A stretch of DNA of 64,000 nucleotides from Flammula alnicola. Lineage: Eukaryota > Basidiomycota > Agaricomycetes > Agaricales > Strophariaceae. Below the pieces are notes generated by a model. The model did no database searches. It was not told the origin of the DNA and saw nothing but the letters and a program-made list of their open reading frames with translations. Shown here in pieces: positions 19,827-26,692 of this stretch (its first letter is position 1; every line of letters starts with the position of its first letter). The stretch spans positions 248,001-312,000 of the forward strand of contig JADNRV010000035.1 in the NCBI GenBank assembly GCA_015499995.1. The letters run 5' to 3'. The translations under genes were made by a program, and so were the position numbers.

Positions 19827-19835
19827 GGGTGGGCC
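19827..19835 (+). repeat. left 9-bp direct repeat (probable target-site duplication)
   Basis: GGGTGGGCC, repeated in the same orientation at 26684-26692. Each copy directly abuts the element terminus TAGTCT (left) or its complement AGACTA (right). This fits a target-site duplication of 9 bp made on insertion. Confidence 0.75.
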
Positions 19836-19863
19836 TAGTCTAGTCCAACTTCCCGGACCTTTG
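19836..19863 (+). repeat. left terminal inverted repeat, outer part
   Basis: Starts TAGTCTAGTCCAACTTCCCG and runs through GGACCTTTG, where the nested insertion interrupts it. The repeat resumes at 20951-20966 (GTGGGTGGGTCAATTC). It pairs with 26585-26626 plus the terminal AGACTA at 26678-26683. Confidence 0.75.
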
Positions 19864-20947
19864 CACACCGGTGGTTCCAACATTAAAAGCTCCTTTTGAT
19901 GTGTATCAAGTACGTTATCAAGGATTTTAAGTGTAGGAAATTCTACAATCTTATTTCGTATTTAAAATGTCAGATAACGTACAAGAAATTATTCTATTTT
20001 AAATACTCAACACCATGTAGGGATATCTTAGATTTAAAATCTTTGATTACATTGAAAGGTGCTTTATACGAAGTCAAGTATTTTAAGACTAGGATAACAA
20101 TCGGGAATATCTTAAATTTTAAGTATTAAAAATTCCGATACGTTGCTTTATATAATGAATATGTGACAACGTCTTAGAAGTCTTTATACTTCAAATATTA
20201 AGTAACATTTTAAAAAATCTTACACGGTATCCAGCATTTAAAGTATAAAAAAATCCTCAATTAATTGCCCACTCATCGCCCACTCATTACCTGCCTAGCG
20301 CCCGTTATGCGTGCAACGGCTCGCCGTCCCGCTGAAATTAGTGGGCAGATTCGAGTTTCTTAGTTAGTAAGCCGCATCTCCTGAATAAGTACGAGGGAAA
20401 CTTGCTCACTTGGTCTGTAGGATTAAATATTAAATTATCAAGGATTCTCAAGGCTGGGTTGTGCACGTCCGCTTTTTCACCGGGCATGCATTATGTGCCC
20501 AGAAAGTCAGCGACAAGTGGGCAATGAGTGGGCAATGAGTGGGCGATTAATCGAGGATTTTTTTCTACTTGAAATCTTGAATAACATCTTTGATAATTTT
20601 AAATGTTCTTTTATATTTTAAATATGTGTAAATTTTAGATTGTGCTCAATATTTAAAATGGTAACCACGCTATTGGATTTATTTTTATTTTAAGTACTAA
20701 AAGTATTTCTTGCTAAATTAAAATTTTAAATATGGTGGAACATTTTAAATAAATTTCGAGTTAAAATATTTGTTACCGTGGAAAGGAGCTTTATATCTTA
20801 TTCAAGATTTAAAATACGAGAATTTTTAAGACTTAATAAAAGATTTTAAATGCTGAAATATTCAATATGGTAACTAATACTTAAAATCTTTGACAACGTA
20901 CTTGATACACGTCAAAAGGAGCTTTTAATGTTGGAACCGCCGGTGTG
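19864..20947. mobile_element. nested non-autonomous inverted-repeat element (MITE-like), 1,084 bp
   Basis: Perfectly delimited. The left arm 19864-19930 and right arm 20881-20947 are 67-bp inverted repeats starting CACACCGG, with only four mismatches, all transitions. TTG flanks both sides (19861-19863 and 20948-20950). Deleting the insert and one TTG restores an uninterrupted terminal repeat of the host element, which proves the order of insertion. The interior is very AT-rich, codes for nothing recognisable and contains many ATTTAAA-type motifs. A 3-bp duplication and long arms fit a MITE or fold-back element; the autonomous partner is not in this window. Confidence 0.85.
20236..20576. repeat. 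inner inverted repeat within the nested element
   Basis: Arms at about 20236-20290 and 20521-20576 pair over about 50 bp. They contain AAAAAAATCCTC followed by two tandem copies of (C/T)GCCCACTCAT. The mismatches in the core are transitions. The central 230 bp is much more GC-rich than its surroundings. It may be a separate small element inserted inside the larger one, or the tip of one long fold-back. Confidence 0.65.
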
Positions 20948-20950
20948 TTG

Positions 20951-20966
20951 GTGGGTGGGTCAATTC
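20951..20966 (+). repeat. left terminal inverted repeat, inner part
   Basis: GTGGGTGGGTCAATTC continues the left terminal repeat after the nested insertion. It is identical to the inverted complement of 26585-26600. Confidence 0.8.
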
Positions 20967-21091
20967 AGCTCTAACGGAAAAGAAAATCCGATCGGCTTTA
21001 GTTAATACGTAGATCACATGATGTCAACGCGAGACGCGTTCGTAGTTGATCGTATTGTTGATTAAGTCAGAACCCCTTTCCTACCACTTTC

Positions 21092-23341
21092 ATGGCTTCT
21101 GCTGGCTCGACAAATAGCCCAGAGCCTTTCTCATGGATATCACTTGAAGGCCGAACCGTTATTCGAGAAATTGTCGAAGCAGCGGTCCCGCAATGGACAG
21201 CCCCACGAGACACTCAGTTAGACTGCTGGGCTCACATTCTTCAAGGCATTCCGACGATCCTAATAGCGTCGACGGGCTGGGGCAAGACCTCAGCCTTTTT
21301 CATTCCGATCCTCGTCTTGAAGCATCTCCAGAAACATCCCAACCCTCGAGTACCAAAGCTTCCATCTTCACCTGTTGCTCTTGTAGTAACACCCCTGATA
21401 GAGCTCGGAAATGCTCATGTATGTCGCTCATTACCTTCTTCTTTCATTAATAGTTCTTACATTTTATTCTTAGGCACTCGAGATATCACAGTTTGGCCTA
21501 ACCGCTGTCTCATTGAGTGCCGAAAGCTTGGAAACCGCCAAATCAGAGGGCCGTGACCTTCTCCAGGAAGTCCGACAGTGCAAATGGTCTGTTGTTCTTC
21601 TCTCAGCGGAAAGGCTGGCCTCGGACGAAATCGACGCCATCATTCGAGACGAGAAATTTCGCGCAAATCTAATTTTGCTGGGAATCGACGAGGTGCACAT
21701 TTTGGTGCCGTGGGGAAAGGACTTCCATCAAGCTTACCACCAAACCACCATCCTTCGCAAATGCCTTCCAGACAGCACCGCCCTCATTTGTGTCACAGCT
21801 ACCCTATGCCCTGGCTCCGAATTGAACGACCTTACGCGACTTCTTTCCCTCAAACCAAACCAATACCACCTCATCCGCCTATCTAATGAGTGCGAAAATG
21901 TTCGCTTCATATTTAGGCAATTGACCCGTACTCTTGGAGGGTATGAGTTCCCAGATCTTGATTGGATTTTCAAGCCTGGCGTCAAGGCTATCGTTTACTG
22001 CCGCACCATCGACCTTGGATTTCGCGTCGCGCTGTACGGTTGGAGGAGCTACCCGCCTGAATGCCGTCGACTTGAAAATGTGCGCCTGTGGACATCGGTA
22101 ACCTCTGCCAAATATAATACACGTACCCTGGAACTGTTTACGGACAACAACAACACTTCAGGGATCGTCGCATCTGTGGCATTCGGGATGGGCATGAATC
22201 TTCGCAATGTCACAGACGTTGTCAACGTCGGACTTCCCAGCTCATATAGCGGGCTTATCCAACAGAATGGCCATCCAGGGAGGAATCTTAGTATGGAGGC
22301 TCGTGCATGGACATATATAGAACCTTCTATTATTTCTGCTATCAAGGATGACATCGAGAACAATGACTCCGACTCCGACTCCGATGAACTTCCTGTGAAG
22401 ACGAAGACCACAGTGCGCAAGGCTACCGGCTTGGATGCCCTTGACTCTGGTCTTCGGAAGATGGGCCGGGCATTCATCCGCGGATTCTGTCTAATCGCCA
22501 ACAGTAACGTCATTTCGGGGAATCCGGGCCCAAAATCAAGGTTGACGTGTGAACAGGCTGGGCGTCGTTTCCCTTGCAGCAATTGCGAACCTTTCCTTCC
22601 TCCCACCGTCGAGTCCACTCCCTCCTCTACATCCAATGACCCTCCTTCCACATCTAACAATGAGCCCTCAGCTACCACGGCAACTGTCAAGCCTATCACC
22701 AAGAAATATCAAGCAAATGTCTTGCTTTGGCTCGAGAATTTTGCAACAGAACGCTGGAATGCTAAGATGGATGTTTCCGCACACCTTTTTCCTCCACTCA
22801 CGCTTTGGACAGGTATCTCTGCTCAGACAATTGCAGAGAACTTTCATCTTTTCAACTCACAAGAGTCGTTGGGCTCATGTCTCGCACAATGGGAGTATCT
22901 GGACTCTGACGGTGGCGCACTGTTCGACCTCGTTGTAAAGCTGAAACAAAACTTTGAAAAGCATGCCCAACAACAGAAGGACATCAGGAATCGGAAGGCC
23001 GCAGCTACGCGTGCACGGAAAAAAGAAGGTTCGTCTTGTAGATTCAATAACTTATCTAGATATTAACCCATCAAGCAGAACTCGAGAGAACGAACATTTC
23101 CGCACCACCTCCACCTCAAAAGAAGGCTACGGGGAAGGAAAATGCTCAACCAACGGCAGGTCCATCCACCAAACTTATCCTTCGTATACCCGCACGGCCA
23201 ATACAGCCTCCGACCAATGTTTTGGATGACTGGGAACCGCCACCAATCACAGAAGCCTTGAATCTTCGAATCCCCGCTAATCCCAAGCATTGTCTAGAGG
23301 ACCAGGGCAATGATGAAACAGCAGCCAAACGTTCACGGTAA
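21092..23341 (+). CDS. RecQ-like DEVH-box DNA helicase carried by the element
   Basis: Three exons: 21092-21418, 21474-23028 and 23076-23341. They sum to 716 codons (715 aa). Helicase motifs appear in order: the 0-like motif PRDTQLDCWAHIL, I ASTGWGKTSAFF, Ia VVTPLIELG, II LGIDEVHILVPWGKDFH, III VTATL, IV KAIVYCRT, V VASVAFGMGMNLRNVTDVVN and VI QQNGHPGR. Motif V and the DEVH box fit RecQ. Motif VI has His where RecQ usually has the first Arg of QxxGRxGR. A small Cys cluster follows (CEQAGRRFPCSNC). After that come a Ser/Thr/Pro linker and a charged tail instead of a full RQC or HRDC domain. Length is short for cellular RecQ but ordinary for mobile basidiomycete copies. It sits inside the transposon ends and converges on the DUF6589 gene, so a role in transposition is inferred. 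Intact. Confidence 0.88.
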
Positions 23342-23366
23342 GTTAAAGTATTCTTTGAAGATAATA
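23342..23366. other. 25-bp convergent gap inside the element
   Basis: Only 25 bp separate the helicase stop codon from the DUF6589 stop codon. The two transcripts must overlap in their 3' UTRs, or the poly(A) sites lie within the opposite gene. Confidence 0.6.
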
Positions 23367-26300
23367 TCAAAACTTACGGTCGCTGGCTTGTGACATTGTG
23401 TAGATCTGACCATCAATTTCAACCATTTGTGCGTGAAATCTTCCATCTCCTTCGAGTTCCTCCAGACTATCTAGCTCATCTATAAGCTCCATCCCCAGAT
23501 CAGCCAGAACAGATGAATCAGCTGGATCAAAGTTGATGTCATGCATCTTGAGGACGTCCGCGAAGACTGTGCTCTTTCCGAGGAAGTCTTTGATTTTATT
23601 TTTGCGAAGTACCTGCATTCCTTTCGCAAAATCATCACTTACCACCTCTCCTTGTTTGCGTCCGGCTCGATAGCAGTTTGTTTCTTCATCGCGTAGTTCT
23701 TTCATCACAGCTTTAAGCTCGTTGGAAGTGTCTGTTTTTCCATGCATCTTTGATCGCACTTTCAATGCAACAACTTCTTCCATCTCTTCTTTCAACCCGA
23801 GAAATTCTTGCACGTTTGGTGAAATTACTTGACGGTAAAATGGCTCATCGAATTCCTTTCCTTTGTGTTGCGCTAGGTCTTCAAGCCAGAAGTTTGAGTG
23901 TTCTTGAAGTAAGTCCATCTCAATGCAATGTCCTGGTTTGCCTGCTCGGTTAACAACCCAATTCAACAGGATAGCATCGCGTAATTCGGGCTTCACTTCC
24001 CACTTGAGCATACAATACATCTCCAGCAAGAAGTTGCAGTAGTGTGGGTTGCCGCTTCCTCCGAAGGTGAAGATCCAAATCTGTTATCGTTGTTTATTAG
24101 CCATGTAACTAATTCTTTAATAGGATCATCACCTTGAGTATTTCCCATACACGGCCAGGGTCGCCCTCTGCTACTGCTTTACAGACTTCTTTCCACCAGA
24201 TTGCGTCTCGCATAAATAAGGCCGAATTGGCAAGGGTGAAATCTCCATCTTCACGGGATGGAGGCTCGGGCAGGGGCTCCGGCTCATTATCATCACATGC
24301 CATCTCGATGTCTTCATTCTCCTCTTGTTCTGGGTCATGCGGAGGTATCCAGGGCTTCCCAGTCGGTGCGAAATCGTGCGCCCCATGCTCTCGATCTTCT
24401 CCAGGATAACATGCACGGTTATAGGCCTGTGTTGTCGCATGGTGATTTACTAATATCCTAGCTGTGTCTCGAAGTTCATCAAAACTCGGTAAATTCAAGT
24501 TAGGCGAAGAGAAGTATGCTGTGAGGTTGTCCGTCTTAAAGTAAAGCCTGATTTTTGAATATGTGAGTTTAAAATATATTCCAACGATTTGGCTGATCAC
24601 TTACTCCCAACAATTCAGCAGATTCGCATCAAGCGCTAGATTGACAAGATAGGATCCATCGTAGAAATCTACCTTGCGCAAATCACTCGGCGTCGGGCAC
24701 TCCGCAATTCGGGCAATGCTTGCGAGAGAGGATGGGTCGTCTGTTGATCCCCAATGGGCGCGTATATCTCGACTCAGGTCTGTCCATTTCGTATGCCAGA
24801 GTTCGAGCAGAGGGACTAGCCACCTAAATGACTCAAAGTCACCTTCTTCAGCAGCGCATATTTTCTTCAGGAGCAAGAACATGGCATATGTTTTACCGTC
24901 ACCAGACATAATGACAGCCCTGTTGTTTAACGTCTCAGCAGTAACACCCATTTGCGTGGATATGAAATCGAGAACACCGCGCTTCAAGCCCTGGATGTGC
25001 ATTTCGTCTGCGCTATTTGTCGCAAGTGGTGTGATCTTGGAACACCTTGTCTTCGGTATGGGTTTTTTGTCTAGAATCTTTGCGTATTCTGCTAATTCCT
25101 GGTGATAAACGGATAGTTGTTTGACGTGTCCAATAAGTGCTTGAAGAAATTGGATGACTGAAACATTCTCGAGGTGAGTTGGGTCAAGATCATTGAGGAT
25201 AGTATCTGCCGTCAATGTTCTCCTCTCCTGACGAGCCTGTCGCTGAAGAATATCTTGTAGGTTCAAGGCATCTGGATGATAGTCTTGCATCTCGATTGCA
25301 GTTCCAGCCAGGCCAGTAATCATTTTATTCTCTCTGCCAATGCGCCGGTCTCGCTTCCTCGCATACACCTGGACATTATCACTCACAACAATCTTGTCTT
25401 TTCCAGCTTGGACGCTAGCCTTCAACTCCGACTGCTTTTGTTTCGCCATTTCACTGAGGGCCTTATACACGGTCGAATGCGCAACAGACTGGCCAATGCG
25501 ACTTTCAACCCGAAAGACAGTGCGGGCAGTTTTGGTAGCAAACATCCATAGAGCGCGGCATAACTGGTATAGATTCGCGCGGTCTGACCGACCGAACGTG
25601 AGCAACATCAAGGCGTTGGTTACGACCTATTATTATGCATGAGTTATGTTATAAATGACCTGTTCAGAAGCCTACAAGATTTTCCGGGCGGTAGGTGCGC
25701 AGTAAAACAGAATCTCCCGGATCGGCATTTGAGAATTCTGAGTGTGCATACGAGTTCATTAAGAAACTCATGACAGGTGCGTTGGCTTTTGCAATATCCT
25801 CAAGTTTTAGGAAACTGAAAGATTGCACGGCCTCCCAGGCGATTCGGTTCTTTTCATGTCTACTGCCTTCCTTTGCATGTGCTCGGTGATGGAGCCCAGT
25901 TTTCTGGTCAATCATTTTCTTTGCTTCCTCGTTTACAAGCTGGCTAACGAGACGGACCACCCAGGTTGTCATTGCAGGATATGCGTGTCGGATTTCATTG
26001 GGGTCGAGGTCCGGATTGAACATGTTAGTGCCGGGTTTAATTGTTGTATCATTCTTGAGAAATGGAGTTTCCGTGGATGCCACCTTGAACATCTTGGCGA
26101 GAAGAGAGGCCATGTGTGGCTTCGAACTTCCATTGAGCATTGATGCAACAACCCTGGTGCGTTTATCAATTCCTTCAGGATGATTCTGGTTCAATAACTC
26201 CTCTAGAAAACCCGGAACTGTCCAGTTGACTTCATGGAGAGCTCCCAATATATACATTAGCTTCTCGGCAGGAGTGCGCGCTTTTTTTCGCTGCGATCCA

Positions 26301-26425
26301 GGTGTTTTGATTTTCTGGGAACTTGTACTTGGTAAAGGTGTTCTCGTTAAAGGCGTTGTAAAGGCGGCTTGTGGGAAGGGATTTCGAGAGGGAGTTTCTG
26401 GTTGCATCGTGATAGGATTGAACAA
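23367..26425 (-). CDS. DUF6589 protein, probable transposase-like component
   Basis: Four exons: 25676-26425, 24605-25626, 24133-24547 and 23367-24080. They sum to exactly 967 codons (966 aa). The N-terminus is a basic Ser/Thr/Pro region (residues about 1-50). A helical segment with RVVASMLNGSSKP follows. The core has the DUF6589 signatures KIVVSDNVQVYARKRD, VIMSGDGKTYAMFLLL, GSTDDPSSLASIARI, WIFTFGGSGNPHYCNFLLEM and MDLLQEHSNFWLEDL. The Asp in 'SGDGKT' and the early 'VSDN' and late 'EMDLLQEH' acidic residues are candidate catalytic positions, as in RNase H-fold transposases (inference). DUF6589 is a multicopy family of Agaricomycetes with no proven activity. An in-frame ATG at 26407 is an alternative start. 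No stop or frame break: the gene looks recently active. Confidence 0.88.
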
Positions 26426-26584
26426 TATCTATGGCTATCTGTAATATATCTCGAACCACGAGTGGAAACAGTGAAACCCATAAGATATTCGTGCAGGAGC
26501 CAGAGATAAGATAATATTGCGATTAGAACCTGGGAAAACGGACACGTGATGTTCAAAGTGTTCGAATTTTTGTCCGAGATGCCC

Positions 26585-26683
26585 GAATTGACCCACCCAC
26601 CAAAGGTCCGTGAAGTTAGAACAGACCTTATATTATATCAAATCGATTATCATTTGATTTATAAGGTCTGTTTTAAGAGACTA
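26585..26683 (-). repeat. right terminal inverted repeat of the element
   Basis: 26585-26609 is the exact inverted complement of the 25-bp left repeat core. 26610-26626 continues the match with a few mismatches. 26678-26683 (AGACTA) mirrors the left TAGTCT. Between them is a hairpin-forming insert of about 55 bp that the left end lacks. Confidence 0.75.
26616..26675. repeat. palindromic insert in the right terminus
   Basis: Arms TTAGAACAGACCTTATA and TATAAGGTCTGTTTTAA (inverted, one mismatch) with ATCAAAT/ATTTGAT further in. It folds into one long hairpin. It interrupts the right terminal repeat and may be a tiny palindromic insertion or a functional end structure. Confidence 0.65.
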
Positions 26684-26692
26684 GGGTGGGCC
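26684..26692 (+). repeat. right 9-bp direct repeat (probable target-site duplication)
   Basis: GGGTGGGCC, identical to 19827-19835 and directly outside the terminal AGACTA. Confidence 0.75.

Follow-up and report, generated by a model that had tools for sequence, protein, structure and literature searches.

What kind of mobile element carries a RecQ-like helicase beside a protein of the DUF6589 family, and what part would each protein play in its movement? This question is raised by a locus of the mushroom Flammula alnicola, in a stretch of 64,000 nucleotides of contig JADNRV010000035.1 (positions 248,001 to 312,000; hence, the window). The window is a part of contig C279 in an assembly of 74.4 Mb and 861 contigs, for which the labels C1–C861 are used throughout. 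Judging by sequence comparison, the element is a genuine and well-bounded transposon of a kind which, according to the accessible parts of the literature, had been described in 2020, namely AcademH. This group of the Academ superfamily is reportedly due to Kojima in that year (Mob DNA 11:15). More precisely, the element is in all probability an AcademH-type DNA transposon that moves by cut and paste, its transposase having been compared with that of Academ by published description only.

The transposon occupies positions 19836–26683 (6,848 bp) of the window. As the initial annotation had proposed, TAGTCT starts at 19836 and, inverted, terminates at 26683, and a 9-bp direct repeat, GGGTGGGCC, abuts both tips (19827–19835 and 26684–26692). 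Terminal inverted repeats are present; the 25-bp inverted core that the two ends were said to share is contiguous at the right (26585–26609), but split at the left (19855–19863 and 20948–20966). The two genes do converge, their stop codons lying 25 bp apart, and the frames have no internal stops, although the exon models give 714 and 960 amino acids (aa) rather than the 715 and 966 aa given earlier. The features are as follows.

19827–19835, no strand: left copy of the target-site duplication, GGGTGGGCC; a single copy is present in unoccupied sites
19836–19863, plus strand: left terminal inverted repeat, outer part, starting with TAGTCTAGTCC
19864–20947, no strand: nested repeat of 1,084 bp, bounded by 69-nt inverted ends and a TTG duplication, not belonging to the transposon proper
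20948–20966, plus strand: left terminal inverted repeat, inner part, where the core resumes past the nested repeat
21092–23341, plus strand: gene of the RecQ-like SF2 helicase, 714 aa (exons 21092–21418, 21474–23028, 23079–23341)
23367–26407, minus strand: gene of the putative DUF6589 DDE transposase, 960 aa (exons 26407–25676, 25626–24605, 24547–24133, 24080–23367)
26585–26609, minus strand: right terminal inverted repeat, 25-bp core
26620–26672, minus strand: right-end hairpin (ACAGACC...GGTCTGT), conserved at the right end of other copies and families
26673–26683, minus strand: right tip, TAGTCTCTTAA
26684–26692, no strand: right copy of the target-site duplication, GGGTGGGCC

If these borders are correct, unoccupied sites should contain the target once, and this is what was observed. 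A query made of the joined flanks yielded eight matches across the window junction (96–99% identity), and the site in C388, aligned base by base to that of the window, contains a single GGGTGGGCC with one mismatch in 139. Six joined sites were aligned to unoccupied counterparts, which may be allelic or paralogous. No gap at the junction was present in four of them (the window with C388, C494 with C512, C79 with C133 at about 84%, and the tip in C534 with C454); in the other two, a small indel lay within the 9-bp target or touched it (C446 with C163, minus 5 bp; the tip in C712 with C557, plus 3 bp). The 5-bp deletion at C163 and the 3-bp insertion at C557 could be excision footprints.

The same borders recur elsewhere in the genome, and together with the unoccupied sites they support the claim of a bounded DNA transposon. 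A perfect adjacent 9-bp duplication is found in ten of the 14 insertions with both ends read, that is, the window, C335, C443, C235/C198, C861/C47, C494, C446, C79, C3, and C1, a slash joining contigs that seem to carry a single insertion on two haplotypes; the C145 copy, whose other end was not found, is excluded from the 14. The duplications vary in sequence between sites. The expectation of a 9-bp repeat at other copies thus holds for most insertions, but not for all: C19 has seven extra bases beside a 9-bp repeat, C634 has eight beside an 8-bp repeat, C24 shares six of nine target bases, and C68 none. Other helicase–DUF6589 pairs have such termini as well. The pairs in C335 (6,867 bp) and C443 (4,900 bp) are both tipped by TAGTCT and flanked by perfect 9-bp duplications (TAACGTGAC and CGTCCAAGC, respectively), and a divergently arranged pair of a distant lineage in C112 has the ends TAGGCT/TAGACT with CGTTAGCCT on both sides, this last being weaker evidence, as a duplication of this type was what the search for its borders was aimed at. 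Non-autonomous derivatives, as comparison of the copies shows, sit at several sites with 9-bp duplications. Two internal-deletion junctions recur (in coordinates minus the nested repeat, 313 joined to 5275 in C634 and C861/C47, and about 600 joined to 5576–5578 in C19 and C235/C198), and in a related family of about 640 bp perfect 9-bp duplications are present in five of the seven copies inspected.

We then have to ask which protein would catalyze the movement. The helicase matches the Pfam domains DEAD (1.1e-15) and Helicase_C (1.8e-6) with no other domain match at E 0.001, and its best relatives among solved structures are RecQ, BLM, WRN, and RECQ1. The second protein matches DUF6589 (1.7e-118, residues 378–836); the public gene model BDZ97DRAFT_1658861 (P0001, Flammula alnicola, 910 aa) is equal to residues 51–960 of the 960-aa model. 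It had been suggested that its fold be modelled in search of an RNase H-like core, and the confident structure model does contain one, of the DDE type and with two helical insertions within, while the conserved residues D327, D487, and E783 form the likely, predicted catalytic triad. In a fold comparison ranked by VIA-align 2, which re-orders Foldseek candidates only, the best matches were the hAT/Hermes structures 4d1q, 6dwz, and 8sjd, with 7–8% identity over the aligned part; profile A2 had no matches at E 5 or below among the sequences of solved structures. The model shares with hAT/Hermes the RNase H-like core and a large helical insertion ahead of the last acidic residue. However, hAT elements produce 8-bp duplications and are not known to carry a helicase, whereas here 9 bp are duplicated at ten clean sites and a helicase is encoded.

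The predicted DDE transposase fold and the conserved residues support the earlier proposal for DUF6589, and on the strength of the model it is likely the transposase of the element. It would bind the TAGTCT-tipped inverted ends, cut them using D327, D487, and E783, and join them to the target DNA with a 9-bp stagger. A likely function would thereby be provided for a family of unknown function present in many mushroom genomes (e.g., 272 matches), which could be relabelled as a transposase; and, now that a DDE-type transposase with a helicase partner and a likely triad has been modelled with confidence, the purpose of the helicase in cut-and-paste transposition becomes testable. No animal relative of DUF6589 was among the matches listed in protein searches, and the named ones were all fungal (in one search, among the best 120 of 272).

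We assign the element to AcademH because every AcademH feature checked is found here: a DDD/E transposase, a helicase, the 9-bp duplication, and terminal inverted repeats. According to the accessible parts of PMC10045372, the target-site duplication is 9 or 10 bp in AcademH and 3 or 4 bp in AcademX, the difference being seemingly tied to the encoded helicase or nuclease. In the accessible parts of PMC10799480, AcademH is described as a low-copy group of Basidiomycota, Ascomycota, and Mucoromycota and as a source of the DEAD and Helicase_C domains. No feature differing from AcademH was seen; the link to DUF6589, the solo tips described below, and the one-sided hairpin are absent from its descriptions in the same parts of these two papers. 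The idea of a helicase-assisted DNA transposon is thus supported, but its design is not new, being already in print as AcademH. In the genome study of Marasmius oreades, according to its accessible parts, a published profile was used to look for Academ elements (PMC8290104), and this species has a DUF6589 protein (P0170), which fits the AcademH assignment but proves nothing. In the literature searched, nothing relevant by title was found for PF20231 or for a RecQ fungal transposon with a 9-bp target site, nor, among the matches listed, for an Academ subterminal hairpin.

Other classes of elements with helicases were considered as well. Helitrons, in which a Rep nuclease is fused to a Pif1-type helicase and which are not known to make a target duplication, share with the element the presence of a helicase and the occurrence in fungi. 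They were rejected, as the helicase here shows DEAD and Helicase_C only and target duplications are present; the separate DDE-type transposase, the RecQ-like helicase, and the 9-bp duplications uphold the distinction from Helitrons made in the initial annotation. The Helitron domains are named PF14214 and PF05970 in the accessible parts of PMC10799480 and PMC8290104. KolobokH, a fungal Kolobok lineage, is closer in that a RecQ helicase accompanies a DDD/E transposase, in fungi only, but, as stated in the accessible parts of PMC9587614, Kolobok has TTAA 4-bp duplications, and the KolobokH termini are 5'-RR and YY-3'; with 9-bp duplications of varied sequence and the termini TAGTCT...AGACTA, this assignment is very improbable and was rejected. 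Alternatively, the element could belong to a superfamily of its own, as yet undescribed, whose DDE transposons carry a helicase and are like AcademH in design only (helicase partner and 9-bp duplication). Indeed, the likeness to Academ lies in the design, the transposases being compared by description, DUF6589 is named in no paper of the literature searched, and the hairpin goes unmentioned in the AcademH descriptions above; yet the DDD/E transposase, the helicase, the 9–10-bp duplication, and the occurrence in Basidiomycota all match published AcademH in the cited parts of PMC10045372 and PMC10799480, and we consider a separate superfamily quite unlikely.

The pairing of the two genes extends beyond the window. 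Clustered genome matches gave 36 DUF6589 loci, of which some are allelic, so that the independent cases are fewer; at 22 of them a related helicase match lies no more than 10 kb away, the arrangement being convergent at 16, divergent at 5, and on the same strand at 1, with chance pairing being about 0.01 per locus, which supports the helicase as a regular partner of DUF6589. Two observations weigh against this interpretation of the element: the remaining 14 loci have no related helicase match within 10 kb, and the ends of the pairs in C323, C114, and C545 were not found in the examined surrounding stretches. Three of these 14 loci contain equal-scoring DUF6589 matches in 665-aa open frames (C201:145519–146721, C223:365857–367059, and C323:54616–55818) and may represent either a lineage without the helicase or a gene retained by the host. 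Such loci, as well as an altered helicase motif VI in the window copy, would agree with the helicase being a passenger, the transposase alone being enough and the pairing kept by linkage alone; nevertheless, pairing at 22 loci in both convergent and divergent arrangements suggests selection to retain the helicase, and the passenger role is unlikely. That two genes happen to lie between unrelated inverted repeats is favored solely by the fact that the ends of the window copy diverge from each other, and, given the duplications at other copies and the similar ends of other pairs, its probability is close to nil; it was rejected, being already refuted by the unoccupied sites. In C545 (45841–54754), two DUF6589–helicase pairs are arranged head to head, their helicase matches being about 520 bp apart.

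Within this AcademH-like element, one end is marked by a structure that the other does not have. A hairpin of about 50 bp lies just inside TAGTCT at the right, DUF6589-side end. Its folding z-score is −5.5 for the window and −4.4 for C335; for the 640-bp family it is −2.6, a fold equalled by 3 of 200 shuffles. By comparison, the value is −0.5 at the left tip of the window, which is only 28 nt long, and −1.8 at the left end in C335. It occupies the same position at the right ends in C279, C861, C47, C235, C68, the 640-bp family, and the C335 element. The tip also occurs alone: solo right-tip pieces end in the second arm of the hairpin, their matches stopping at positions 43–61 of the right end. 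Ten distinct solo-tip loci (allelic pairs merged) were obtained from 14 examined, the sites in C146, C124, and C13 being outside this set. Half of the ten have a flanking duplication of at least 9 bp, three of these with 3–10 extra bases beside TAGTCT; the other five have none, and two of them (C323 and C861/C47) are devoid of the outermost bases too. Since the inner ends vary, one fixed mini-element is disfavored as the source of solo tips, and as the hairpin keeps its position among the right ends of the copies named above, treating it as a separate mini-element, which the solitary occurrence of the tip might suggest, is not the default.

In the AcademH reading as such, the RecQ-like helicase would unwind or remodel either the ends or the gap under repair; the hairpin would mark or stabilize the right end; and solo tips would arise when excision-gap repair halts in the hairpin. 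Beyond this, we tentatively propose, as a possibility rather less probable than its opposite, that the conserved hairpin marks one end, that during gap repair synthesis from this end stalls in the second arm of the hairpin and leaves solo tips of about 43–61 bp with intact target duplications on both sides, and that the helicase melts the hairpin, with DUF6589 acting as the transposase throughout. The hairpin at one end and the solitary tips provide one specific hypothesis for the role of the helicase: if it is true, the need to melt the hairpin while ends are processed or gaps repaired would explain why a transposon of the cut-and-paste type has kept a helicase. Solo tips in the stretches L045, L046, L048, L052, and L058 (from position 1501) are flanked by 9–10-bp duplications, and these are possible gap-repair scars. 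In the C634 and C198 copies, further insertions are situated inside the right-end hairpin near the loop, as though insertions or breaks were drawn to the hairpin.

As for the state of the window copy, both genes had been called intact, and the reading frames are open, but helicase motif VI is altered, being QQNGHPGRN as opposed to QQNGRAGRD in C335 and QQNGRAG in C323. The left terminus, uninterrupted in the C235, C19, C634, and C47 copies, is split here by the 1,084-bp insertion, with TTG flanking both sides. For these two reasons, the copy is probably impaired, or less than fully competent, despite its open frames. The nested repeat is AT-rich, and its 69-nt inverted ends (CACACCGG...CCGGTGTG) are 94% identical. 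It has 17 full-length copies in the genome, the window copy included, at 97–100% identity, and hence is independent of the transposon; these near-identical copies suggest that it was recently active.
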